Source of the DNA: Anaerocolumna aminovalerica
Lineage (GTDB): Bacteria; Bacillota; Clostridia; Lachnospirales; Lachnospiraceae
DNA: 64,000 nt
Assembly: GCF_900115365.1 (NCBI RefSeq)
Contig: NZ_FOWD01000022.1
Location: 1-64,000, forward strand
Reading direction: 5' to 3'
Every line of letters starts with the position of its first letter. Positions within the stretch are counted from its first letter, which is position 1. The position numbers and the translations under genes are program-made. This document shows positions 7,953 to 64,000 of the stretch, piece after piece. A model generated the notes under the pieces. It was given only the letters and a program-made list of their open reading frames with translations, ran no database searches and was not told where the DNA came from.

Positions 7953-7992
7953 GGCTTAAGAAAAACACATTGTGTTTTTCTTAAGCCTTTTG
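7953..7992 (+). terminator. Strong hairpin between yezD-like and nifB-like genes (terminator/attenuator)
   Basis: GGCTTAAGAAAAACACA and TGTGTTTTTCTTAAGCC are fully complementary (17 bp, minimal loop), followed by TTTTG. It either ends a short yezD transcript or lets only part of transcription pass into nifB. The arms also contain A-runs, so it would work as a terminator in both directions. Confidence 0.78.
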
Positions 7993-8105
7993 CTTTATAA
8001 TCTTTTGCTTATAAACAGTAAAAAATGAATGGTTATCCTATCCGGCAGCAGAATAGTTCTTAAATTGTAACCCATAACTATAACTTTTATTTTAAGAGGT
8101 GTCTT

Positions 8106-8966
8106 ATGGAAAGAGATGTGAAAAAATTGCATCCTTGCTTTGGTAGTTTACCTAATACCGGCAGAATTCATTTGCCTGTATGCCAGAGATGTAATATTCA
8201 GTGCAATTTTTGTGACAGAAAGATAAATGATTATGAGAAACGTCCGGGTGTTACAGCCTCTATACTAGAACCGGGAGAGGCTATAGCTATTTTAGAGGAA
8301 GCATTAAAAATCTGTCCGGAAATTACAGTAGCAGGAATTGCTGGACCGGGAGATACTCTGGCCTCAGATCATGCAGTAGAAACCTTTAAATTAATTAAGA
8401 ATACCCATCCCCATCTTCTAAGATGTATGAGTACAAACGGTCTTTTGCTAAATGAGAGGGCACAGGAGCTTATAGATGTGGGCATAGACAGTTTAACTGT
8501 AACAGTGAATGCAGTAGCACCAGAAATTCTTGAAAAAATTGTATCGGGAATTGTATACCATGGAACATACATAAGGGGAACAAAAGCTGCTGAGCTGCTT
8601 ATTTTTAACCAGTTGGAAGGAATTAAAAAAATGGCGGCTGCCGGTACTGCCATAAAGGTTAACACCGTTTTAATCAATGAAATTAACAAAGAGCACATAA
8701 AAGAGGTAGCAAGGACTGTAAAAGCAGCCGGTGCATCTATGTATAACATAATTCCTTTGATTCCACAGTATAAATTCAGACACTTGAAAGAACCGGGATG
8801 CGGTGATATTGATGGTGCCAGAAGAGAGGCAGGGGAGTATATAGATGTATTCAGACATTGTCAAAGATGCCGGGCAGATGCAGTTGGAATTCCTGGTGTA
8901 TTGGATGTAGCCGGGCAGCTTTATAAAGGAAAAATAAAGATAAGGGAAACTTTTTCCCATGGTTAA
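8106..8966 (+). CDS. nifB: NifB-type radical SAM enzyme (L-cluster/NifB-co synthase)
   Basis: NifB joins two [4Fe-4S] units with a SAM-derived carbon into the [Fe8S9C] precursor of nitrogenase cofactors. The 286 residues match the NifB core: HPC at 9-11, radical-SAM CNIQCNFC (Cys29, 33, 36), GIAGPGD (77-83), RCMSTNG with Cys107, and C-terminal HCQRCRADAVG (Cys252, 255). Cys11, 107, 252 and 255 sit where NifB holds its K clusters. The C-terminal NifX domain of longer NifB proteins is absent; a separate NifX gene follows at once. Start: ATG after AAGAGGTG. The symbol denotes family; it presumably serves the nitrogenase-like enzyme, not N2 fixation. Alternative: a NifB paralogue with another product; the retained cluster cysteines argue against that. 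Confidence 0.9.
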   Translation: MERDVKKLHPCFGSLPNTGRIHLPVCQRCNIQCNFCDRKINDYEKRPGVTASILEPGEAIAILEEALKICPEITVAGIAGPGDTLASDHAVETFKLIKNTHPHLLRCMSTNGLLLNERAQELIDVGIDSLTVTVNAVAPEILEKIVSGIVYHGTYIRGTKAAELLIFNQLEGIKKMAAAGTAIKVNTVLINEINKEHIKEVARTVKAAGASMYNIIPLIPQYKFRHLKEPGCGDIDGARREAGEYIDVFRHCQRCRADAVGIPGVLDVAGQLYKGKIKIRETFSHG

Positions 8967-8982
8967 TAGCAGGAGGGATGTA

Positions 8983-9312
8983 TTGGGTTATCGAATTGCA
9001 GTTGCATCAAAGGATGGAAAAGTAGTAACGGATCATTTCGGTCATTGCAGCAAATTTATAATTATTGAAGTTGATAATGAGAACTACCGATTTATAGAGC
9101 AGCGTTTAGTGACTCCGCCCTGCCGGGGAGGAATCCATACAAAAAGTGGTATAGAAGAAGTTTTAACTACTATAGAAGACTGTATGTATATACTGGTGTA
9201 TCAGATTGGCCAGGGAGCAGAAAAAATGGCTTTAAAAAACAATTTTATAGTAATCACTTACAAAGGATTTGTTACAGATGCCTTAGACCAGATTATGTCC
9301 GCTCATCCTTAA
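8983..9312 (+). CDS. NifX/NifB-C-type cofactor-binding protein, copy 1
   Basis: Belongs to the dinitrogenase FeMo-cofactor biosynthesis domain family (NifX, NafY, C-terminus of NifB), which binds or carries NifB-co/FeMo-co. I set the start at TTG 8983, preceded by AGGAGGG at good spacing, which gives MGYRIAVASKDGK; a frame from ATG 8959 overlaps nifB and lacks a binding site. With this start, His18-Phe-Gly-x-Cys22 lines up exactly with the second copy at 14497. The family His of this motif is implicated in cofactor binding. Also visible: a middle Cys (TPPCRGG) and a late ILVYQIGQGAE strand. Translationally linked to nifB (109 residues). Confidence 0.85.
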   Translation: MGYRIAVASKDGKVVTDHFGHCSKFIIIEVDNENYRFIEQRLVTPPCRGGIHTKSGIEEVLTTIEDCMYILVYQIGQGAEKMALKNNFIVITYKGFVTDALDQIMSAHP

Positions 9313-9576: not shown

Positions 9577-10455
9577 ATGGCTAAGAAAGTAAAACAAATC
9601 GCTATTTATGGAAAAGGAGGAATTGGGAAATCAACAACAACCTCCAATATAAGTGCAGCGTTATCAAAGCTGGGTTATAAGGTAATGCAGTTTGGTTGTG
9701 ACCCCAAAAGTGATTCCACCAATACATTGAGAAACGGCGAATACATTCCCACCGTATTAGATACTCTGAGAGAAAGAGCTGCGGTAAAAGCAAATGATGT
9801 GATTTTTGAAGGATTTAACGGCGTTTACTGTGTGGAGGCAGGGGGGCCGGCACCGGGTGTAGGCTGCGCCGGAAGAGGTATTATTACGGCGGTACAATTA
9901 TTTAAGCAGCAGCATGTTTTTGAAGATTTGGATTTAGATATTGTAATTTATGATGTATTGGGAGATGTTGTCTGCGGAGGATTTGCAGTTCCCATTAGGG
10001 AAGGAATAGCAGAACATGTATTTACGGTATCATCAGCGGATTTTATGAGTGTATATGCTTCTAACAACTTATTTAAGGGAATTCATAAATACTCTACCAG
10101 CGGAGGAGCATTGCTTGGAGGAATAATTGCCAATTCCATTAATCAGCCTTATGCAAAGAATATTATAGATGATTTTGCTACAAGAACCGGAACCAAGATT
10201 ATGCAATATGTTCCCCGTAGTGTTACCGTTACCCAAAGTGAGTTACAAGGTAAAACAACCATAGAAGCAGCACCGGATTCAGCACAGGCAGGTATTTATA
10301 CGGAACTTGCAGAAAGAATAGCAGAACATGACAAATCTGATATACCCAATCCTATGGATACGGTTACATTACGACAATGGGCCTCTGACTGGGGAAATCA
10401 GCTCCTTGAACTGGAAACAGGTGTTATAGCGGGAGGTGCTAAAGCCGGAATCTAA
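9577..10455 (+). CDS. nifH: NifH-like nitrogenase reductase (Fe protein)
   Basis: Homodimeric ATP-dependent electron donor carrying one [4Fe-4S] cluster between subunits. 292 residues, close to true NifH: P-loop GKGGIGKST (12-20), GCDPKSDST (40-48), switch with Cys97 (GVGCAGRGI, including Arg100, the ADP-ribosylation site in some NifH) and Cys133 ([16 protein letters not shown]). It is much nearer NifH/VnfH than to BchL/ChlL in these blocks. It starts after GGAG at 7-bp spacing, and heads a block with K-like, D-like, cysK, NifX and importer genes. It should reduce the K/D complex beside it. The symbol marks family membership only; the partner subunits argue against N2 fixation. Confidence 0.93.
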
Positions 10456-10556
10456 AAATAGACGAATCGGTACTAAAGTCTAAATACATGATGACATAAA
10501 TGGAATATAAGAAAGCTCATAATGGGATTAATCGAAATGGAAAGGGAGGTTTTATT

Positions 10557-11891
10557 TTGGCGGAATTTATTGAGAGGGCAAAATTTTCTTGTGCTCTTGG
10601 AGGAGCACTTACAACAATTGCAGGAATACCAAGGGTGGTACCCATTGTACACGCATCAGGAGGTTGCGCCGCAGCTTTATCCGGTACCTATAATTTAGCC
10701 TCAGGATACCGTGGCACCGGATATTGCGGCGGTACTATGATACCTACGACGAATATATCAGAGAATCATATCGTATTCGGCGGAGAAGAAAGACTGGAAG
10801 AACAAATAGAGAATTCACTTGAAATACTGGATGGAGATTTATTTATTGTTGTGACCGGATGTCAGGTAGAAATTATTGGTGATGATGCGGTAAATGTAGC
10901 AAGACGTTTCAGGGATAGAAATGTAATCGGAGCCAATACACCGGGTTTCCTAGGGAATACCTTTCAGGGCTATGATGCCGTTCTTAATGCCATTATTAGT
11001 GAAGTAATTGAAGCTTCTGAGGAGAAGGAAGAAAAAGTAGTCAATATTTTAGGGGTGGTTCCCGGCCATGATGTATTTTACAGAGGTAATCTGGATGAAA
11101 TAGTACTTCTCCTAAGTAAAATCGGAGTAAAAGCAAATACCTTTTTTGGAACGGGAGAAAGTATTGCTTCTATCAGGCAATACGGAAAGGCTGTTCTAAA
11201 CCTTTTGTTTTCAGGCCAGGCAGGAGTTGCCCCTGCTAAGTTATTTCAAGAGTTACATAATATACCTTTTATATCTGTTGATGTACCGGTGGGACCTACA
11301 GGTACAGAAGAATTTTTATACCGGGTGGGTAAGGAGTTAAAGATTGATAAGGCATCCATTGATAAAGTAATCCGGGAGGAAAGAAAAGAGTATTATTCTT
11401 TTTTTGAAAGAATTGTGGATATTTATTCAGACATGGATTTCCAAAGATATGCTCTGATTGCAGCAGACAGCTATTATGCATTTTCATTAACCAGATTCCT
11501 GGCCAATGATTTAGGTTGGATACCCCACCTTACGGCTATTAATGATATTGATGATGTTAATGACAGAGAAGAATACTTATCGAAATTTAATAGTCTTACT
11601 TCTGAAACAAAACCAACAGTAATATTTGAGGAACATGCTGGGGCAATTTTAAATGAACTTCGTAAAACCTGGCCTAATAATAACAATCAGAAATACTATG
11701 ATGCATTCAATGCAGCTTTTGTAGTGGGAAGCGGTATTGAAAGAAGTCTGGCAGAAAAATTAGGGGCAGGATTTTTATCCGTAGCCTTTCCGGTAAGTAA
11801 TCGTGTCGTGCTTAATAAAGGGTATACAGGATTTAGGGGCGGTCTTACTTTAGTGGAAGATTTAATCAGCCAATTGGTGGCAGCCAGATAG
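10557..11891 (+). CDS. NifK-like subunit of a nitrogenase-like reductase
   Basis: Beta-type subunit of the nitrogenase superfamily. I place the start at TTG 10557, behind AAAGGGAGG, giving 444 residues; an ATG at 10500 has no binding site. In this numbering Cys12, Cys37 (VHASGGC) and Cys102 (VVTGCQVEIIGDD) correspond to P-cluster beta-Cys70, 95 and 153; the 25-residue spacing of the first two is identical to NifK. NTPGFLGNTFQGYDA matches the NifK HTPSFxGSHxxGxD block. An extra Cys57 precedes FGGEERL. The C-terminus (SVAFPVSNRVVLNKGYTGFRGG) follows the NifK pattern without its HHLH. It precedes the D-like gene, the reverse of nifDK order. Substrate unknown. Confidence 0.85.
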   Translation: MAEFIERAKFSCALGGALTTIAGIPRVVPIVHASGGCAAALSGTYNLASGYRGTGYCGGTMIPTTNISENHIVFGGEERLEEQIENSLEILDGDLFIVVTGCQVEIIGDDAVNVARRFRDRNVIGANTPGFLGNTFQGYDAVLNAIISEVIEASEEKEEKVVNILGVVPGHDVFYRGNLDEIVLLLSKIGVKANTFFGTGESIASIRQYGKAVLNLLFSGQAGVAPAKLFQELHNIPFISVDVPVGPTGTEEFLYRVGKELKIDKASIDKVIREERKEYYSFFERIVDIYSDMDFQRYALIAADSYYAFSLTRFLANDLGWIPHLTAINDIDDVNDREEYLSKFNSLTSETKPTVIFEEHAGAILNELRKTWPNNNNQKYYDAFNAAFVVGSGIERSLAEKLGAGFLSVAFPVSNRVVLNKGYTGFRGGLTLVEDLISQLVAAR

Positions 11892-11934
11892 GATTGCCTG
11901 TTGAGTTCTGTAGATTTCAGAAAGGATGAAAAAT

Positions 11935-13473
11935 ATGTCAAATTCAAGTTATGTTAACAGTCTTACTTATAATTATTTAACATCGGATGCCCCACCTACC
12001 AGAGAAGAAAGAATCGGTGTCTGTCACGCTTTTTGCGGTTCCTGTGGTGAATTAAAAGATGGGCTGAAATCCGGTTGTGCTCAGCTGCAAAACCGTAGAT
12101 TTTCACAAAGCGGTGGCTGTCAGTTAACTCTTGCGGTAGGTATCGTAAGCAGTTTGACCAATGTGGTTATGATTATACATTCTCCCCTTGGATGCTGTTC
12201 TAATTTTGTAGGAAGCGGCGGGCTTAGAAAAACTATGAGAGCCTCCAAAGGTAAAGTGGATGAGGACTTTATCTGGCTTCATACCAACCTGAACGAGTTG
12301 GATGTTGTACAGGGAGGTATTGACAAATTAAGAAAAACCATTCTTTATGCGGAGAAAGAATACCATCCTGAGGCTATTATTATTGCCAACGGCTGTGTGC
12401 CCGGGATTATAGGAGATGACATTGATTCTTTGGTAACAGAATTATCTGACAGAATATCTGCTAAGATTGTTCCTGTTCATTGCGAGGGCTTTAAGAGTAA
12501 ATACGTGGCCTCTGGTTATGACTCGGCCTACCATGGAATTTTAAGACATCTTATTAATCCTGCTCAAAAGTATGAAAAGGTAATTCCTATAATAGACAGG
12601 GACTTAAAGGAGGAATATCGAATCAGCCGTACTGTCAATATCTTTAATGTGGGTTCAAACAGTAACGGTGATGAAGTGGAATTGTCAAGGCTTGTCAGTG
12701 CTTTAGGTCTTATACCCAGAGTGCTGCCCCTTCATTCTTCATTGGGTGATTTGGAAAGAATAGGAGAGGCGGCCCTGAATGTAAGTATTTGCGCTACTCA
12801 CGATGACTATTTGTTAGGGCATTTAAAGGAACGCTTTGGTACAGATTATTTAATAGATACACTTCCTATCGGTATTAAGAATACCAACCAATGGATTCGC
12901 CGGATTGCTGCTTACTTTCATTTGGAAGAAGAGGCAGAGAAATTAATTAAATTTGAAAATCAACAGCTTATAGCTTCTTTGAAACCCTTGAAGGAAGCCT
13001 TAAAGGGGAAAAGTGTATTTGTTGGGGGCGGAGAAACAAGAATCATAACTACAGCGGAATTCTTCTATTATCTTGGTATGGAGTTAGTTGGAGTTAAAGC
13101 CCATAATGTGGACCGGTTTGTTGAAGATATACTGGATGATATTAATGAGCCCGGACTTGTAATCGAGGTGGCAGCAGGTATGCCTGCTGAGGAACTAAAC
13201 TTACTAAAACGTCTGCAGCCTGATTTATATATCGGGCATTTAAATGCCAATGGATGGGTTAGTAAGCTTGGCATACCAAACTTTCCTTTATTTGGCCAGA
13301 CTTTAAATTATATGGGATATTCCGGTGCATTTGAATTGGCAAGAAAAGCGGTTAAGATTCTTAAGAATACTAATTTCTTTAAGAATGTATCTTCTAATAT
13401 TTCGTTGCCCTTAAGCAAAGACTGGTATGAAAGAGACCCGAAAGAGAATATTAAAGAAGCAGCTAACTATTAA
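11935..13473 (+). CDS. NifD-like catalytic subunit of a nitrogenase-like reductase
   Basis: Alpha-type subunit. The ATG at 11935 fits the AAAGGA site; ATG 11926 (three codons longer) overlaps it. Residues are numbered from 11926. Cys65, Cys90 (HSPLGCC) and Cys157 (NGCVPGIIGDD) match P-cluster alpha-Cys62, 88, 154; IVPVHCEGF is the NifD IVPVRCEGF block. Cys289 (VSICATHDDY) aligns with cofactor ligand alpha-Cys275. Val194 and Tyr198 replace alpha-Gln191 and alpha-His195, and no His occurs after residue 438, so alpha-His442 is lost (Asn461 or a neighbour). The N-terminus adds CX3CX2C (Cys33, 37, 40) plus Cys51, possibly an extra FeS site. It therefore binds a cofactor but is unlikely to reduce N2. 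Confidence 0.87.
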   Translation: MSNSSYVNSLTYNYLTSDAPPTREERIGVCHAFCGSCGELKDGLKSGCAQLQNRRFSQSGGCQLTLAVGIVSSLTNVVMIIHSPLGCCSNFVGSGGLRKTMRASKGKVDEDFIWLHTNLNELDVVQGGIDKLRKTILYAEKEYHPEAIIIANGCVPGIIGDDIDSLVTELSDRISAKIVPVHCEGFKSKYVASGYDSAYHGILRHLINPAQKYEKVIPIIDRDLKEEYRISRTVNIFNVGSNSNGDEVELSRLVSALGLIPRVLPLHSSLGDLERIGEAALNVSICATHDDYLLGHLKERFGTDYLIDTLPIGIKNTNQWIRRIAAYFHLEEEAEKLIKFENQQLIASLKPLKEALKGKSVFVGGGETRIITTAEFFYYLGMELVGVKAHNVDRFVEDILDDINEPGLVIEVAAGMPAEELNLLKRLQPDLYIGHLNANGWVSKLGIPNFPLFGQTLNYMGYSGAFELARKAVKILKNTNFFKNVSSNISLPLSKDWYERDPKENIKEAANY

Positions 13474-13486
13474 AGGAGGTTAAAAA

Positions 13487-14452
13487 ATGAGCAAAGTTGT
13501 AGAAAATCTAACCCAATTAATTGGAAACACACCTATTTTAAAACCTTTGGCATTTTCTGAACTGGCTAAAATAGAAGATGCAGTACTGCTTCTGAAACTG
13601 GAATATTTTAATCCCTTAGGAAGTGTAAAAGACAGAATCGCTTATGCAATGATAAGAGAAGCAGAGGAAAAAGGGCTTCTAAAGAAAGAGACAGTTCTTA
13701 TAGAACCCTCCAGCGGAAATACAGGAGTAGGGCTTGCCTTTGTGGCAGCCGCAAAAGGATATAAACTTATTATTACCATGCCGGATTCCATGAGTATTGA
13801 AAGGAGAAGCCTTCTTACGGCACTTGGAGCAGAACTGGTATTAACACCAGGTACCCTTGGTATGAAAGGGGCAATAAGGAAAGCAGAAGAATTAAATATT
13901 CAAATCCCTGATAGTTTGATTTTACAACAGTTTGAGAATAAAGCAAATCCTAAAATACATAAAGAGACTACCGGACCTGAAATCTGGGAAGCAACAGAGG
14001 GAAAGATAGATATTCTTGTTGCAGGGGTAGGTACGGGAGGAACCATAACAGGAGCAGGAACTTACTTAAAGGAGAAAAATCCGGATATAAAAGTAATAGC
14101 CGTAGAGCCACAAGCCTCACCTGTTCTTTCGGGAGGAAATCCCGGTCCCCATAAGATTCAGGGAATCGGTGCAGGATTCTTTCCGGAAATATTGGATTTA
14201 TCCGTTATCGATGAAATATATAGAGTAAGAAATGAAGAAGCAATAGATACTGCCAGAGTTCTTGCAAGGGCGGAAGGACTTTTAGTGGGAATATCATCCG
14301 GAGCGGCGGCATTTGCGGCAGCCTTAATAGCCAAGAGGCTGGAAAACAAAGGGAAAACGGTTCTGGCAGTATTACCGGATACAGGGGAGAGATATCTTTC
14401 AACAGAGTTATTTAATACGGATTCTGCCCAAAAAAGCAGAATCTGGTATTAG
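13487..14452 (+). CDS. cysK: Cysteine synthase (O-acetylserine sulfhydrylase)
   Basis: PLP enzyme condensing O-acetylserine with sulfide to give cysteine. 321 residues with all main marks: IGNTPIL at the start, PLP lysine in [16 protein letters not shown] loop, [10 protein letters not shown] phosphate-binding loop, KIQGIGAGF, and [11 protein letters not shown]. It begins 13 bp after the D-like subunit with AAAGGAGG, so it belongs to the same transcript. A sulfhydrylase inside a nitrogenase-like operon implies that the reductase releases sulfide or a thiol that is captured here, or that cysteine supply for FeS assembly is coupled. The first reading fits the sulfonate-type importer downstream. 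The family assignment is secure; the coupling is inference. Confidence 0.93.
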
Positions 14453-14496
14453 GTATCCGGCAGACAGGAAAGTTGAAAGTAGAAATGAGGTGTTTT

Positions 14497-14856
14497 ATGA
14501 AGTACCGTGTGGCAATCGGCACAAAGGACGGCAAGAATATAACGGAACATTTCGGCACCTGCGGTCATTTTCAAATAGTGGAAATAAACCAGGAAAACGG
14601 TGAGACTACAGTGATTGAAAAGAGAATTACAGTTCATCTGGAGCAATGTGGAAATCATCTTGAGGATAACATTATTGAAAAAATAAAAGCGCTGAATGAT
14701 TGTCATATTATTTTGGTAAAACAAATAGGAGGAAGATCTGAAAAATTACTAGTTCATTATGGATTCATTCCTCTTACAAATTCCGGGCCAATAGATGTAG
14801 CTTTGGCTAAGATTATTAAATTTTACAAGAATCAGATTTTTAAAAGGGAGGAATAA
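14497..14856 (+). CDS. NifX/NifB-C-type cofactor-binding protein, copy 2
   Basis: Second member of the FeMo-cofactor biosynthesis domain family. Start set at ATG 14497 after GAGGTG (119 residues; an upstream in-frame ATG at 14473 lacks a site), so the N-terminus MKYRVAIGTKDGK parallels copy 1 and His18-Phe-Gly-Thr-Cys22 occupies the same positions. A middle Cys (HLEQCGNH) and NDCHIILVKQIGG follow. It probably carries or protects the [Fe8S9C]-type cluster on the way from NifB to the K/D complex, as no NifEN scaffold is present. The two copies differ clearly in sequence, so they may act at different steps. It ends 3 bp before the permease gene. Confidence 0.85.
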   Translation: MKYRVAIGTKDGKNITEHFGTCGHFQIVEINQENGETTVIEKRITVHLEQCGNHLEDNIIEKIKALNDCHIILVKQIGGRSEKLLVHYGFIPLTNSGPIDVALAKIIKFYKNQIFKREE

Positions 14857-14859
14857 ATT

Positions 14860-15846
14860 TTGGCTGAAAGAAAAGAAATATTAAGGGATAAAAAGATCCG
14901 TTTTGACTACAGATCAGCCATTCCCAGCTTAACATTAATTGTCGCCCTTCTGACGGAAATACTTATACCGAATCATATGGATGCAAAGTACAGAACTTTA
15001 ACGAATTTTAAAAGTGTTCTAATTACTTTTACGGTAGTTTCCCTATTACTTTTATTGATTTCAATATTCCATGAAAAAACAAGAAACCGCTATGTACGTA
15101 AAGGCTGGTTTCTTGGAGGAACAGTAGTATTTATTACAATGTTAAATCTGGTTACAGTGAAGCTGCTGTTACTGCCTCAGATTTATTTTCCCAGCATTAA
15201 CAGAATATTAAATGTCTACATAGAAGATAAAAACCTGCTGCTTAAGTGCCTTATCAGTTCTTTTACTTTGTTAGTGGAAGGACTGCTATTTGGTACGGTA
15301 ATAGGTATTATAACAGGTATTTTGGTGGGCTGGAGTAAAAATTGGAATTACTGGATCTATCCTTTAATCAGGATATTAGGTCCCATACCTTCTTCAACCT
15401 GGATACCACTTACCTTAATTATATTTCCTACCTCCAGAGGGGCGGCTATTTTTCTGATTGCCTTTGGTGTTTGGTTTCAGATTACGATTTTAACCAGTTC
15501 GGGAATACAAAGTGTGAAACAATCCTATTTTGAAGTATCCTCCACATTAGGTGCCACAAATTTGCAAAACTTATTATTTATTGCTATACCCGATGCCCTG
15601 CCCTCCATGTTCTTAGGACTTTTCAATGCTACCTGCAGTTCTTTTGTGGCACTAATGGCTGCTGAAATGTTTGGTGTAAAAGCAGGAATCGGTTGGTATA
15701 TCAACTGGCAGAAGGAAATGATAGCTTATTCCAATGTATATGCAGGACTTATTCTGATAGCCGGTTTTTGCTACCTCTTTATAACAGTACAGTTTAAAGT
15801 CAGGGATAAGTTACTTAGCTGGCAGAAAGGGGTGATTAAATGGTAG
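14860..15846 (+). CDS. ABC importer permease, SsuC/TauC type
   Basis: Inner membrane subunit of a sulfonate/nitrate/taurine-type importer. Starts at TTG 14860 behind AAGGGAGG. Two early hydrophobic segments (about 20-40 and 45-65, plus one near 85-105) precede the usual SsuC core (about 130-320): GTVIGIITGILVGWS, PIPSSTWIPLTLIIFP, and the cytoplasmic EAA loop EVSSTLGATNLQNLLFIAIPDALPSM that contacts the ATPase. At 328 residues it is longer than usual SsuC (about 260) because of the N-terminal extension. It overlaps the ATPase gene by 7 bp. Substrate is not readable from the permease; the family transports alkanesulfonates, taurine, nitrate or thiamine precursors. Confidence 0.88.
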   Translation: MAERKEILRDKKIRFDYRSAIPSLTLIVALLTEILIPNHMDAKYRTLTNFKSVLITFTVVSLLLLLISIFHEKTRNRYVRKGWFLGGTVVFITMLNLVTVKLLLLPQIYFPSINRILNVYIEDKNLLLKCLISSFTLLVEGLLFGTVIGIITGILVGWSKNWNYWIYPLIRILGPIPSSTWIPLTLIIFPTSRGAAIFLIAFGVWFQITILTSSGIQSVKQSYFEVSSTLGATNLQNLLFIAIPDALPSMFLGLFNATCSSFVALMAAEMFGVKAGIGWYINWQKEMIAYSNVYAGLILIAGFCYLFITVQFKVRDKLLSWQKGVIKW

Positions 15847-16670
15847 ATACGAAATCCCAGGCATCCTGTATTCATTCCCATACTGGTAATATAAGAGCAA
15901 GAGATATTTCAAAAGAATTTATAAGACCGGATGGTGAAAAAGTGATTGCCTTAAGTAATTTAGACGCGGATATTAAAGCAGGGGAATTTATCTGCCTTAT
16001 TGGTCCCTCTGGATGCGGAAAGTCCACTCTTTTAAGATTAATAGCAGGTTTAAATGAACCAAACAGCGGAGATATCAAACTGGACGGGCAGACAATCAAA
16101 GGTCCCGGATATGAGAGGGGTCTGGTGTTTCAAGATCCCACTCTTTTTCCCTGGCTTACGGTTCATGACAATATAGCATATGGATTAAAAGTGCGCCATG
16201 TATACAAACACAAGAAAGAAGAAATTCATGAATTTATACAGCTTGTTGGACTGAAAGGTTTTGAAAAATCCTATCCACATCAACTTTCCGGCGGTATGGC
16301 ACAACGGGCAAGTCTTGCAAGAGCGTTGGTAAATCACCCCAAAGTACTGTTACTGGATGAGCCTCTTGGTGCATTGGATGCATTTACGAGAATGAATATG
16401 CAGGATGAGATACTAAGAATCTGGAAGGAAAGGGGAACCACGATGATTATGGTCACTCACGATGTGGATGAGGCTATTTACTTAAGTGACAGAGTATTTG
16501 TTATGACGCCAAGACCTGCCAGGATAGAAAGAATCATAGATGTGAATATAGGAAGGAATGAGAGTCTGGGAAGACAAAGAGACAGTGGGGATTTCTTGCA
16601 GCTTCGTTCAAAAATACTGCAGATACTGGATTTTACCGGAAAAGTACAACAGCCGGAATTTTACTTGTAG
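15840..16670 (+). CDS. ABC importer ATPase, SsuB/TauB type
   Basis: Energises the importer. Walker A GPSGCGKST, Q-loop VFQDPTLFPWLTVHDN, signature LSGGMAQRASLARAL, Walker B VLLLDEPLGALDAFTR and switch VTHDVDEAIYLSDR are all intact; PLFPW-LTVxxN and GALDAxTR are typical of the nitrate/sulfonate/taurine group. A roughly 20-residue polar N-terminus precedes the domain. 276 residues, normal length. Overlaps the permease gene and is followed 96 bp later by the binding lipoprotein, so one operon encodes the full transporter. Confidence 0.93.
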   Translation: MVDTKSQASCIHSHTGNIRARDISKEFIRPDGEKVIALSNLDADIKAGEFICLIGPSGCGKSTLLRLIAGLNEPNSGDIKLDGQTIKGPGYERGLVFQDPTLFPWLTVHDNIAYGLKVRHVYKHKKEEIHEFIQLVGLKGFEKSYPHQLSGGMAQRASLARALVNHPKVLLLDEPLGALDAFTRMNMQDEILRIWKERGTTMIMVTHDVDEAIYLSDRVFVMTPRPARIERIIDVNIGRNESLGRQRDSGDFLQLRSKILQILDFTGKVQQPEFYL

Positions 16671-16766
16671 ATATGGGGATGGAAAGAGAAAACAATAAAA
16701 ATTATAAAATGAAAAAATTATGGAGTTAACAAATAAATGAAAATAAGTATGGGAGGAAGAAAATCT

Positions 16767-17945
16767 ATGAAAAAGGCCATAAGGTTTACAGCAATCTTTT
16801 TAACAATGGCATTGTTTACACTCTTATTTACTGCCTGTCAGAAGGCGGAAAAAACAAATGTCAATGACAGCACGGTGGCTGTAACAGAAGAAGCAAAAGA
16901 AAATGGAGATAATGCATCTGATGAAAATAAAGTGAAAGAAGTTGCTGCTAATGGGAATACAACTTCTGATAAAGTTTTGGAAGATGGAATTATTAAAATA
17001 TTATATGGTTCCAGTTTGTGTGGCATTCCTCTGCATATAGCCAAACAGCTTCAGTTTTTTGAAGGGGAAGGTTTAGTGGAAGGTGTGGATTATGAATATG
17101 TGACTTCAAGTACGCCGGGGGTTGAAATGCTTTCTACCAAGCAGGCTGATGTAAGCTTTGGTCTAGTTGCAGCTATGCTTGCTCCTTTGGATAATGGGCT
17201 GGAAGCGAAAACTGTGCTTGGCATACATACGGGGTGTATTCAAATCATAGCAGGTGCTGGTTCAGGGATTAAAAGTGTAGCGGATCTTAAAGGCAAAAGA
17301 ATCGGTGTTACCCAACTGGCTTCATCAGACCATATTGTTACACAGCGCGCTTTGGCAAGTGAAGGAATTGGTTCTACAGCTGATAATATGGAGGTTGAAT
17401 TTATTGTATATGATAAAGATAATCTTCCCATTGCTCTAAAAGAAGGAGCTGTGGACGCTATAGCCATTGGTGATCCGAAGGCTACCATACTTGTTAATGA
17501 AGGAACCGGTATTTCCATATTTAATTCTGCCACCTCAGAGCTGTTAAAAGATGAATATTGCTGTGCACTATGGGCAAGAAATGAAACCATAGAAAAACAG
17601 CCTAATAAATTAGCCAAAATAGTAACTGCAATACAAAAAGCTTCAGTATGGGTAGATCAGAATAAAGAACTGGCAGCTGAAATTCAGTTAGATAATGAAT
17701 GGCTTGTAGGGGATTTGGAAATTGATATTGCTACAATTAAACATTTTAAATATCTCCCTTCTGTAAGCGGAGTTAAAGAAGCATTAACAAGAAATATTTT
17801 TGATATGAAGGATCTAGGACTTATCAGGAAAGATACGGATGCAGAACAACTTTCCAGAACAAGCTTTGCAAGACTTGAAGGAGTTGCAGATGAATTAACG
17901 GATAAGGTAGAACCACCGGTTGATCCTGCTTTACATTTAAAATAG
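16767..17945 (+). CDS. Substrate-binding lipoprotein, SsuA/NMT1-like
   Basis: Extracytoplasmic binding protein of the importer. ATG 16767 follows GGGAGGAAG; ten in-frame codons upstream are unlikely to be translated. Signal peptide with lipobox LLFTAC (Cys24), an acidic linker (about 25-75), then an NMT1/SsuA fold: LYGSSLCGIPLHIAKQLQFFEGEGL, SSTPGVEMLSTKQADVSFG, DLKGKRIGV, KEGAVDAIAIGDPKA. The opening GIPLHIAKQLQFF block corresponds to the sulfonate/taurine/nitrate group. Length 392. Candidate ligands are alkanesulfonates, taurine or another organosulfur anion, judged from family plus cysK context. Last protein-coding gene of the cluster. Confidence 0.88.
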   Translation: MKKAIRFTAIFLTMALFTLLFTACQKAEKTNVNDSTVAVTEEAKENGDNASDENKVKEVAANGNTTSDKVLEDGIIKILYGSSLCGIPLHIAKQLQFFEGEGLVEGVDYEYVTSSTPGVEMLSTKQADVSFGLVAAMLAPLDNGLEAKTVLGIHTGCIQIIAGAGSGIKSVADLKGKRIGVTQLASSDHIVTQRALASEGIGSTADNMEVEFIVYDKDNLPIALKEGAVDAIAIGDPKATILVNEGTGISIFNSATSELLKDEYCCALWARNETIEKQPNKLAKIVTAIQKASVWVDQNKELAAEIQLDNEWLVGDLEIDIATIKHFKYLPSVSGVKEALTRNIFDMKDLGLIRKDTDAEQLSRTSFARLEGVADELTDKVEPPVDPALHLK

Positions 17946-60492: not shown

Positions 60493-60993
60493 ATGTATAG
60501 AAATTTTTTTATCAGTCAAAATGAACAAAGTTTTTGTCCAGAGTATGCATGCGGAATTGCTTGTCTTTCTATGTTATTAAAATATCACCAGATAACTGGT
60601 TATGAAAACTTTGAGAAACTTGCTATTGAATTAAATTTTAATGTTTCACCGGAAAAAAAAGGATATGACAGCGATGATATGAAGTGTGGGACTTACCCTG
60701 AAGATATATTCAGATACCTCATTAAAAACAACATTAATTTTAGAATGTCTTTTTATGAGGATGAATGGAAGGAGGCTCTAAAAAAGTCTCCAATTATGGC
60801 AATGATGACTGGAAATGAAGAAATGTTTGGTCTTAGGAATTGTCATTGGATCATATTAGTGGATAGAGATAAAGATTTTTTTACATATCTTGATCCATAT
60901 GAAACCATGCTGTCTGATAACTATGTGAAACATATTTGGTCAGGTGATTTTAAAAAATATTATACAGGAATAGCCTGTCAAATAATCATATGA
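60493..60993 (+). CDS. C39-like (papain-fold) cysteine peptidase
   Basis: 166 residues. Catalytic Cys20 in YACGIACLSMLLKYH, His118 in NCHWIILVD, and Asp134 in YLDPYE give the C39/BtrH-type triad. In ABC exporters this domain cuts double-glycine leaders; here it is free-standing with no membrane segment. Last gene of the marR operon; its end overlaps the convergent chelatase gene by 8 bp. Substrate unknown; could mature or degrade a peptide. Confidence 0.75.
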   Translation: MYRNFFISQNEQSFCPEYACGIACLSMLLKYHQITGYENFEKLAIELNFNVSPEKKGYDSDDMKCGTYPEDIFRYLIKNNINFRMSFYEDEWKEALKKSPIMAMMTGNEEMFGLRNCHWIILVDRDKDFFTYLDPYETMLSDNYVKHIWSGDFKKYYTGIACQIII

Positions 60994-61771
60994 AATGTGT
61001 TTCCACTTGCTTTATAAATAGTTGCTGAATGAAAGGCTCATTTCCTAGACCTGTTAGAATACAGTCTACTTTGAAACCGGCGTTAGTTAAAACGGAATAT
61101 AAAGAAGCTTGATGCTTGCCGGCCATATCATGTAAGACGTGATAACCGACAAGCATTAATAATGGAACTAACCGTATATATTTTATGCCTCTTGCATGTA
61201 ACCTGGCGATAAAGTCTTCAATATCTGAAATAAAATCGAGAGTTAACACTGAATAATTTATGTGATGATTATTATGAAAATATGTTTCAAGTTCACTATA
61301 ATAAATACTGGATGAGTGGGAGCTTCCATGCCCTAAAAATATTACAATCTCATCGTTATGGTGTATGGGATACAGGGTTGTAAGTGACATGGAAATTGAT
61401 TCATAGCATCCTTTTGTAGCCAGTAATGGTTTGCACATGTTAATCTCATTAAATAAATATTGATAGTCAGCCAGAGTTTGCTGCATTTTTAGAAAACTAT
61501 GACCAGGCAGAAGAAATGCTGGCAGGATATAAAGTGAAGTTATCTTATTATTATGTAGCTGCTCTAATACGTTACATAAAAAAGGCAAAACCGCAGAATC
61601 CTTATCCTGAGTATAATTATGGGTAATTATTGCTGGATATACAGCGTAATCATGGAAGGCTGACTTTAATTGTTCTTGCAGTGTTAAGATAAAGTTATTA
61701 CCAGCATTGTAAGAACTTGAACCGTAACTTACAATTAGAATTACTTTTTTTTGTTGATACAGGTAACTCAT
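60986..61771 (-). CDS. CbiK-type sirohydrochlorin chelatase
   Basis: Inserts Co2+ or Fe2+ into sirohydrochlorin; with iron this makes siroheme. 261 residues. Marks: LIVSYGSSSYNAGNN at the start, AFLLPGHSF, the catalytic HGSSH block near the middle, and LVPLLMLVGYHVLHDMAG. CbiK is usually a cobaltochelatase for B12, but its position next to a siroheme-dependent reductase gene, two genes on, fits siroheme production here. Minus strand, ATG behind AAGGAGT. Metal choice is inference. Confidence 0.85.
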   Translation of the reverse strand: MSYLYQQKKVILIVSYGSSSYNAGNNFILTLQEQLKSAFHDYAVYPAIITHNYTQDKDSAVLPFLCNVLEQLHNNKITSLYILPAFLLPGHSFLKMQQTLADYQYLFNEINMCKPLLATKGCYESISMSLTTLYPIHHNDEIVIFLGHGSSHSSSIYYSELETYFHNNHHINYSVLTLDFISDIEDFIARLHARGIKYIRLVPLLMLVGYHVLHDMAGKHQASLYSVLTNAGFKVDCILTGLGNEPFIQQLFIKQVETHFI

Positions 61772-61950
61772 AATAATAAGACTCCTTTCCTTTATATTGC
61801 AATTTAATAAATAATAGTCTACAAAATTAGTGATATATTTATCTATAAGCTAAAAAGACATTTAATGAAAGCTGAATGATTTACAACTTAATATTTATAA
61901 GATATCAGGCAAAGAACACTAAAATGTCTTTCTTATTTAAATTCTTTAGA

Positions 61951-62985
61951 TTAACCAATAAATCCTTTAAATAAGTGAATAAATATCATAGAGGAAGCAG
62001 CAACAGCTAACCAAGTACAACCACCAAGGATAATTGGCTTAATTCCTTTCGTTAATAATTCTTTAAATTTAATCTTGAATCCCACTCCTGCTAATGCAAC
62101 GGTAATAAATAATTTATAACTGGTTTTAAAGAATTTATCTAGTCCATCAACTGCCTGGAATAATCCAACGGTATTTAAAACTGCCATTAATAAAAATCCA
62201 AGGATAAACCATGGGAATACTTTAAATACAGTTTTTGAAATACTTGTTTGCTCCATATTTGCTGCATTATTTTTAGATTGTTGCCGAATTGTGATTACTG
62301 TAAAGATAACTGCTAATGCAATGAGCATGGTAGTACGTGTAAGCTTAACTGTAATTGCAAGATTTAAGTCTAAACCATTTACTGCATTATAGGTAGCTTC
62401 AGATGCTGCAACGCTTGATGTATCATTGATTGCAGTGCCTGCAAGGAATCCAAATTGATTAGGAGTTAAATTAAGTGCACCTGCTAAGTAAGGATATACT
62501 AGGGCTGCAAAAATATCAAAAAGAAAAATAGCTGTCATTGCGTAAGCAATCTCTGTTTCTTTTGCTTTAATAATAGAAGCCAGAGTAGCAATAGCAGTAC
62601 CACCACAGATACAAGTTCCTCCACCAACTAAAGTACAAGTATTCCAAGATTGCTTTAATTGTTTTCCAACTAAATATGCTACTGTAAAAGATAAGCAGAT
62701 ATTAAAAATGATTAAGGGAAGTGCTTTAGCGCCATATCCTAAAATTTGAGTAAAGTTAAGGGTTCCCCCTGCAAGGATAATACCTAAGTTAAGGCATTTT
62801 TTACCCGCAAAGGTTGTGCCCTTTTTAAAGTCTTTGTCTATGTTTGGCAAGATGTTTACAAGAAGCATACCGATAAATAGACCAATCATTGGTGCACCTA
62901 TAATATTTTGAAGTTTACCAAGGTAAGTTGCTACAATTGCAATAATAACGCAAGTCCCAATTGCTAAGTATGATTTTTTGTTCAT
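61951..62985 (-). CDS. YeiH-family putative sulfate/sulfite-type transporter
   Basis: 344 residues with about ten membrane helices (UPF0324/PSE family). Conserved blocks: LGIILAGGTLNFTQIL, CTLVGGGTCICGGTAIATLASIIKAK and FGFLAGTAINDTSSVAASEA. Named 'putative sulfate exporter' by family, with taurine, sulfite or thiosulfate roles suggested for relatives. It lies between the chelatase and a sulfite/nitrite reductase, so transport of a sulfur oxyanion is likely. ATG behind AGAAGGGA on the minus strand. Confidence 0.88.
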   Translation of the reverse strand: MNKKSYLAIGTCVIIAIVATYLGKLQNIIGAPMIGLFIGMLLVNILPNIDKDFKKGTTFAGKKCLNLGIILAGGTLNFTQILGYGAKALPLIIFNICLSFTVAYLVGKQLKQSWNTCTLVGGGTCICGGTAIATLASIIKAKETEIAYAMTAIFLFDIFAALVYPYLAGALNLTPNQFGFLAGTAINDTSSVAASEATYNAVNGLDLNLAITVKLTRTTMLIALAVIFTVITIRQQSKNNAANMEQTSISKTVFKVFPWFILGFLLMAVLNTVGLFQAVDGLDKFFKTSYKLFITVALAGVGFKIKFKELLTKGIKPIILGGCTWLAVAASSMIFIHLFKGFIG

Positions 62986-63085
62986 AATTTGTCATGTCCC
63001 TTCTGAGATGTTAAATTTTTAACAATGCATTTCTAAATAATAACCGACCAGAGTAAAAGTCTTATCGGTTATTATAAATCCTATA

Positions 63086-64000
63086 TTAACAAGTTGCGCC
63101 GCCTGCTAAGTGAAGTTTGGCGTCTAAGATTTCTTGTTTACGGTCTAGCAAATCATTGGAGTATAATTGAGCCTGAACATTTTCAAAACCGATACGGGTA
63201 ATAGTATCAGATAAACGTTCTCCGGTCTGTCCTTGTTCTCTATAAAGAAGAATTGTTTTTTCAATGATTTCTAAAGCTTCCTCTTTGCTGGTAAATACAC
63301 GGTCAAGAGAAATTCCGTGGGCTACTTTTTTGCCCCATCTGCCACCTATGTAAATTTTGTATCCATTTACCCCATCTTCGATACAATCAAAGTGACATTT
63401 ACCCACACAACGGCCACAGTTGTTACATGTATCTTCATCAATGGTAAGAACCCCATCTTCTAAAGCTGCAGCAGCCATAGGACATGATTCTACAACAGAG
63501 CATTTTTTACAGCCATTACAGCTATCTTCATCATAGTTAGGAACTAACTGGCCGATAATACCTAAGTCGTTTAAATCCGGTTTTACACAGTTATTAGGGC
63601 AGCCACCTACAGCAATTTTAAATTTATGAGGTAATTTTACATTAGCATAACCATTGTAGAAACGTTGGTGAATTTCTTCTGAAAGGGCAAATGTATCAAT
63701 AAGGCCATATTGACAAGTGGTTCCTTTACAAGATACAACGGGGCGTACTTTTGAACCGGTACCACCAGTAACAAGTCCTTCCTTTGCAATGTAATCGCGG
63801 AATTTCTCAATGTTATGGTAATGAATGCCTTGACATTCTATTGTTAATCTTGTTGTCAAAGTAACTATACCGTTACCATAAAGTTCAGCTGCTTCAGACA
63901 AGCATTTGTTTTGTGCAGCAGTAATTTTACCATTTACAGTAATAATTCTTCCTGAAAAATTATCAGTTCCTTTGTTTCTAAGAAAACCAAGGGCCTTCAC
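63086..64000 (-). CDS. Siroheme sulfite/nitrite reductase with ferredoxin domain (5' end at window edge)
   Basis: 304 residues in view; the frame reaches the right edge, and the family start is probably just beyond (a GTG at 64000 is possible). Ferredoxin-like half domain, VTLTTRLTIECQGIHY, then siroheme/[4Fe-4S] binding: VSCKGTTCQYGLIDT and GGCPNNCVKPDLNDLG. An inserted two-cluster ferredoxin follows (CNGCKKCSVVESCPM, CNNCGRCVGKC). Close to AsrC-type anaerobic sulfite reductases, and to small nitrite reductase-like proteins; CbiK and YeiH neighbours favour sulfite to sulfide. Interestingly, it would supply sulfide to cysteine synthase, as the nitrogenase-like cluster may also do. Confidence 0.85.
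   Translation of the reverse strand: MKALGFLRNKGTDNFSGRIITVNGKITAAQNKCLSEAAELYGNGIVTLTTRLTIECQGIHYHNIEKFRDYIAKEGLVTGGTGSKVRPVVSCKGTTCQYGLIDTFALSEEIHQRFYNGYANVKLPHKFKIAVGGCPNNCVKPDLNDLGIIGQLVPNYDEDSCNGCKKCSVVESCPMAAAALEDGVLTIDEDTCNNCGRCVGKCHFDCIEDGVNGYKIYIGGRWGKKVAHGISLDRVFTSKEEALEIIEKTILLYREQGQTGERLSDTITRIGFENVQAQLYSNDLLDRKQEILDAKLHLAGGATC

Follow-up and report, generated by a model that had tools for sequence, protein, structure and literature searches.

Gene organization of the locus

The window analysed here, a 64,000-nucleotide stretch of Anaerocolumna aminovalerica DNA, carries on the forward strand a run of genes encoding, in order, a NifB-like protein, a NifX/NifB-tail protein, the H, K and D components of a nitrogenase-like reductase, cysteine synthase, a second NifX-like protein and an SsuCBA-like importer. 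The D (alpha-like) subunit is encoded at 11926..13473 (+), exactly the bounds given in the initial annotation, and the 515-amino-acid product matches PF00148 with E=7e-75. It is preceded by genes for the K (beta-like) subunit at 10500..11891 (+) and a NifH-type reductase at 9577..10455 (+). The latter scored 402.9 bits with TIGR01287, above the cut-off, and shares Cys97 and Cys133 with MarH. K matches MarK best (9d9u_C, E=1.5e-74), and its Cys31, Cys56 and Cys121 correspond to MarK C32, C56 and C121.

The first gene of the run (8106..8966, +) encodes a NifB-like radical SAM enzyme, which matched the solved NifB structures 7bi7/7jma with E=4e-79 and has all the motifs that were checked (HPC, CxxxCxxC, RPG, AGPGD, TxTxN and CxxCRxDA). 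It is followed by a NifX/NifB-C-terminal-like cluster-binding protein (8959..9312, +; PF02579, and positions 330-416 of TIGR01290). The whole genome encodes one full-length D, one K and one full-length NifH; as this D and K are its only full-length PF00148 proteins, no NifEN was found in the genome, and therefore there is no standard FeMo-co route. Another contig (C17, 1301-1813, loci L003/L004) carries decayed D-like fragments with an in-frame stop, that is, a degenerate second nitrogenase-like D gene.

Downstream of D, the gene for cysteine synthase A (CysK) is located at 13487..14452 (+; TIGR01139, 448 bits against a cut-off of 351), followed by that of the second NifX-like cluster-binding protein at 14473..14856 (+; PF02579). 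The importer genes encode an SsuC/TauC-like ABC permease (14860..15846, +; PF00528, with the TauC, SsuC and ntrB models below cut-off), an SsuB/TauB-like ABC ATPase (15840..16670, +) and an SsuA-like substrate-binding protein (16737..17945, +; PF13379 and PF09084, with TIGR01728 at 111 bits, below its cut-off of 163.5). No riboswitch was found as a clue to regulation. Just upstream of the nifB-like gene, at 7954-8009, there is an AT-rich inverted repeat with a weak match, below threshold, to a Streptococcus sRNA model; it could be the terminator of the previous gene or an operator. A search for relatives in viral contigs found none.

Phylogenetic position and predicted cluster ligands of the D subunit

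The residues of D were mapped by phmmer against solved structures, by MAFFT L-INS-i with approximately 90 D-like proteins and by HHalign. The best solved relative in the phmmer search was MarD (9fmg/9d9u, E=3e-61), with other alpha chains at 1e-20 to 1e-33, and in a search with a profile of the clade the score of MarD was 331 bits and that of the others at most 205. In an IQ-TREE phylogeny of 76 proteins, D fell in a clade, hereafter clade A (34 rows, 100/99), and the Mar clade stood apart (26 rows, 100/100). The Isr-like sequences L031/L032, which form a distant clade, and two further clades were also separate from clade A.

The three cysteines that had been assigned to the alpha P-cluster were recovered by all three methods. 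Cys65 (12118..12120, +) aligns with MarD C66 and NifD C62 and is present in 35/35 clade sequences covering the position; Cys90 (12193..12195, +) aligns with MarD C91 and NifD C88, and Cys157 (12394..12396, +) with MarD C158 and NifD C154. The equivalence of Cys289 (12790..12792, +) to alpha-Cys275 also held in the alignment. This residue, which corresponds to C270 of MarD and is found in 36/36 clade members, is the predicted Fe1 ligand of the active-site cluster. The pattern is not due to chance, as a 35-sequence clade alignment with identity down to 34% shows no variation at C65, C90, C157, C289, Y198 or H438. The nitrogenase-like nature of the protein is supported, and it is expected to bind both a P-cluster and a large cofactor. 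With Mo-nitrogenase NifHDK it shares the fold, the P-cluster cysteines and the cofactor Cys275, but identity is only ~22-28%, and alpha-Gln191, His195, His442 and Val70 are not kept.

The MHSWDYS motif of NifD is absent from D, and the alpha-His442 column is a gap in the query and in all 36 clade members. The last His of D is His438, so that the initial annotation was correct in noting that no His lies beyond this residue and that alpha-His442 is missing. It had further concluded that the cofactor can be held by one Cys; this is probably wrong and we rejected it, because a second ligand had been sought only at alpha-His442. His438 (13237..13239, +) was placed on MarD His429 by phmmer, MAFFT L-INS-i and HHalign alike, and the His is invariant in 72/72 proteins, 36/36 in clade A and 36/36 in the Mar clade. 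In the comparison with NifD, the residue opposite His438 is the Gly of SGIKEK, which we take to be alpha-Gly424 (A. vinelandii numbering). Alpha-Gly424 is strictly conserved in nitrogenases (PMC12552129). The [Fe8S9C] cluster of MarDK is bound by Cys270 and His429, the latter residing on 'Loop I', a place different from alpha-His442, and it was overlooked in earlier sequence analysis (PMC12552129). His438 is thus a predicted second cluster ligand (Fe8) on a Mar-type Loop I, and two-point anchoring by Cys289 and His438 is the arrangement expected from homology.

An AlphaFold2 model of D, made from a shallow alignment of seven sequences, had a mean pLDDT of 54 and a pTM of 0.54. Its top fold match was methylthio-alkane reductase 9fmg_A (E=1.3e-22), which at this low confidence confirms the family only, the side chains of Cys289 and His438 being beyond the precision of the model. 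In this weak model His438 is the last residue of a predicted strand (434-438) and Cys289 comes directly after another (284-288); such placement is as for cofactor-facing residues in the nitrogenase-like fold, at the level of strands and not of side chains.

Other ligand patterns were seen among the D-like proteins collected. In another group IV clade, found on a Chlorohelix plasmid (L095:8971-10491) and in three Bacillota (L047, L090/L161 and L162), D carries Cys in place of the Loop I His (TGCPF/LTCPF) and, in addition, an HS motif close to alpha-His442, which may be a further means of capping the cluster. A further D-like clade (L013-L018, L020, L045 and L061, and also L019 and L063) replaces alpha-Gln191 by Cys or His and keeps the cofactor Cys, and Loop I is wholly absent from it.

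The substrate pocket

Both residues that had been placed at the N2-reduction site were located correctly: Val194 (12505..12507, +) is at alpha-Gln191 and Tyr198 (12517..12519, +) is at alpha-His195. The corresponding residues of MarD are Trp195 and Phe199, which are invariant in the Mar clade. Within clade A the first position is occupied by V, W, M, Q, F or S, and the second is Tyr in 36/36 proteins, compared with Phe in 36/36 Mar proteins. His393-Asn394 (13102..13107, +) lies at F374-H375 of MarD, where the H375 position is near S2B; His is found at 394 in 25/36 clade members, and Asn394 together with His393 in the subclade of the query. Further differences from MarD are Ile73/Gly72 for Gln74/Cys73 and Tyr193 for His194. 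The Arg that precedes the ligand His, Arg428 of MarD, was proposed as a hallmark of Mar (PMC12552129); it is present in 36/36 Mar-clade proteins and in 0/36 of clade A, where Loop I is one residue shorter than in Mar.

Judged from these alignments, the pocket of the query is unlike that of both NifD and MarD. The pocket residues vary within clade A and the predicted cluster ligands are constant, as would be anticipated for related enzymes that act on different substrates. The view that the site is remodelled is supported, and the argument that another substrate is used is likely right. The N2-reduction residues are indeed lost; their loss does not by itself exclude N2 reduction, however, because NifB and NifEN loaded with L-cluster reduce N2, also without the NifD residues (PMC13245594).

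Gene neighbourhood across clade A

We compared the gene context of 35 clade A loci with that of 27 Mar loci, counting CysK at an identity of at least 58% within 6 kb of D. CysK was found near D in 24/35 clade A loci and in 9/27 Mar loci (p=0.01 by Fisher's test, taking the loci as independent though they are related). The opposite was observed for MetY/MetB-type genes, with 3/35 in clade A against 13/27 in Mar (p=0.0009, same test, with the related loci again taken as independent). CysK is in itself a common gene. SsuB-like ATPase genes were present at 26 of the 35 clade A loci. Gene order differed as well, since K precedes D in 24/35 clade A loci and in only 3/27 Mar loci, the other 24 of the 27 having the DK order.

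A MtaA/CmuA-type methyltransferase, an MtbC-like corrinoid protein or a RACo/AcsV-type reactivase was encoded at 12/35 clade A loci. Group IV-A nitrogenase-like genes occur with type I mlp clusters, for which a role in methyl-sulfur metabolism has been proposed (Kountz and Balskus, PMC10418091). Because the corrinoid genes at these 12 loci resemble the type I mlp cluster, clade A is probably the poorly characterised group IV-A (Nfa), which includes NfaDK of Endomicrobium, Paenibacillus riograndensis and Heliophilum (PMC9147875, PMC10418091); CysK and, at part of the clade A loci, an association with mlp-like corrinoid genes would be common to both. A genome-wide search of A. aminovalerica with PF01208 found no corrinoid methyltransferase gene.

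Several anaerobes (loci L111, L114, L115 and L123; genomes G784, G937 and G631) have several nitrogenase-like DK pairs, belonging to different clades, next to one another within a single locus. This arrangement suggests that common H and B components serve a range of substrates.

Proposed function and alternatives

The function best supported by these data, which we consider somewhat probable, is that of an ATP-driven two-component group IV nitrogenase-like reductase predicted to cleave C-S bonds in a sulfur assimilation pathway feeding cysteine synthesis. The starting points, as read from the sequence, are H, K, D and NifB with their motifs and P-cluster cysteines, the positions of Cys289 and His438, and the loss of the N2-site Gln and His. 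NifB would make an [Fe8S9C] cluster, which would enter D without NifEN, Mo or homocitrate and be held there by Cys289 (Fe1) and His438 (Fe8). H would deliver electrons through the P-cluster to the active-site cluster. The SsuABC-like importer would bring in an organosulfur compound, and the cluster, in a pocket formed by Val194, Tyr198 and Ile73, would cleave its C-S bond. The sulfur would end as sulfide, either directly or via sulfite or methanethiol, and CysK would fix it into cysteine; Mar feeds methionine, and clade A would feed cysteine. There are precedents: MarDK contains [Fe8S9C] and cleaves C-S bonds (PMC12552129), and in the nitrogenase-like isethionate system the substrate is supplied by an SsuCAB importer (PMC11423573).

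At the end of the window, 60986-64000 on the reverse strand encodes a CbiK-like chelatase, a YeiH-like exporter and a DsrB/AsrC-like siroheme sulfite reductase, a possible sulfite-handling locus. The reductase (63086-64000, -) is the only PF01077 protein in the genome and lies ~50 kb from the nitrogenase-like genes. Because of this gene a sulfite intermediate is possible, and we relaxed the requirement for sulfide as the product. Were sulfite the product, this reductase, the only one found in the genome, would be required from a distance of ~50 kb, which counts against our explanation. The sulfur reading is also opposed by the scores of the importer models, which lie below the family cut-offs, by the absence of corrinoid genes from the A. 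aminovalerica genome and by the 15N2 result in Endomicrobium proavitum described below.

The main alternative is that the enzyme is a group IV-A (Nfa) nitrogenase, which would use an [Fe8S9C]-type cluster to reduce N2 and need no NifEN. Group IV-A has been proposed to fix N2: E. proavitum is reported to incorporate 15N2 and its only nif-like genes are subgroup IV-A NfaDK, and the same is predicted for Heliophilum (PMC9147875). This bears on the query through the probable identity of clade A with IV-A, itself drawn from the type I mlp association (PMC10418091), and the activity of the L-cluster-loaded proteins mentioned above shows that N2 can be reduced without the NifD residues (PMC13245594). 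Nevertheless, in clade A the alpha-Gln191 position is variable, alpha-His195 is uniformly Tyr and alpha-His442 is missing throughout; the neighbouring genes are sulfur genes, and MarDK has this cluster but fixes no N2 (PMC12552129). We regard N2 reduction as the function of this enzyme as unlikely.

MarHDK/MarB of Rhodospirillum rubrum (9fmg, 9d9u; PMC12552129) is the closest known system, and the query could be the same methylthio-alkane reductase after ordinary divergence. MarD and MarK are the best solved matches, the P-cluster cysteines of D and K and the equivalents of Cys270 and the Loop I His429 are shared, and both loci have a NifB-type maturase, no NifEN and sulfur genes nearby; methyl-sulfur genes are also found near part of clade A. 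On the other hand, clade A is separate from Mar at 100/99, the hallmark Arg428 is missing from every member, Trp195 and Phe199 are replaced, the KD order prevails over DK, and CysK takes the place of MetY/MetB. Assignment of the query to Mar was rejected on the tree and the pocket residues, and identity of function with MarHDK is equally improbable.

The importer and the sulfite reductase would together complete a route for an IsrHDK-like reductase of sulfonates such as isethionate, which releases sulfite. SsuCAB is essential with IsrBHDK (PMC11423573), and the Isr system resembles the query in being nitrogenase-like group IV, in its SsuABC importer and in serving anaerobic sulfur assimilation; the 64-kb window also contains the genes for the siroheme sulfite reductase and for the CbiK-like and YeiH-like proteins. 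But the gap to the sulfite reductase is 50 kb and the importer models are below cut-off. Moreover, IsrD keeps only one of the three P-cluster Cys and neither cofactor ligand, Cys or His, and IsrB is not NifB-like (PMC11423573). Since the query keeps all of these Cys residues, its assignment to Isr was rejected on the cysteines, and we give a sulfonate reductase the same low likelihood as the two preceding alternatives. Finally, a vestigial site, in which D has at most one Cys-anchored large cluster or none and works with [4Fe-4S] only, like DPOR, would accord with the earlier argument from the missing alpha-His442 and N2-site residues, but is very improbable given that every clade member retains Cys289 and His438 and that NifB with all its motifs is encoded in the operon.

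Implications for nitrogenase-like enzymes

The earlier reading of a single Cys ligand should be replaced by Cys plus a Loop I His, as the alignments indicate, and the remodelled substrate site is supported. Few nitrogenase-like enzymes have a known function, and of these only MarDK has been shown to contain both clusters of nitrogenase (PMC12552129). We tentatively propose, at slightly less than even confidence, that group IV-A is a second family of [Fe8S9C] C-S reductases, serving cysteine rather than methionine, and that the Loop I His ligand predates the split of Mar and IV-A. The change from one ligand loop to the other, Loop I or the alpha-His442 loop, would therefore mark the boundary between sulfur and N2 reductases; IV-A would fix N2 only as a side activity, or the assignment of that function would be mistaken.

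If clade A does hold [Fe8S9C] by Cys and the Loop I His, this mode of ligation would predate Mar and extend beyond it, with consequences for how the nitrogenase cofactor evolved, and the proposed Mar hallmark of Arg428 plus His429 would narrow to the Arg alone. It would also assign a testable sulfur role to a group that has been suggested to fix N2, here in anaerobes from a gut-related family.
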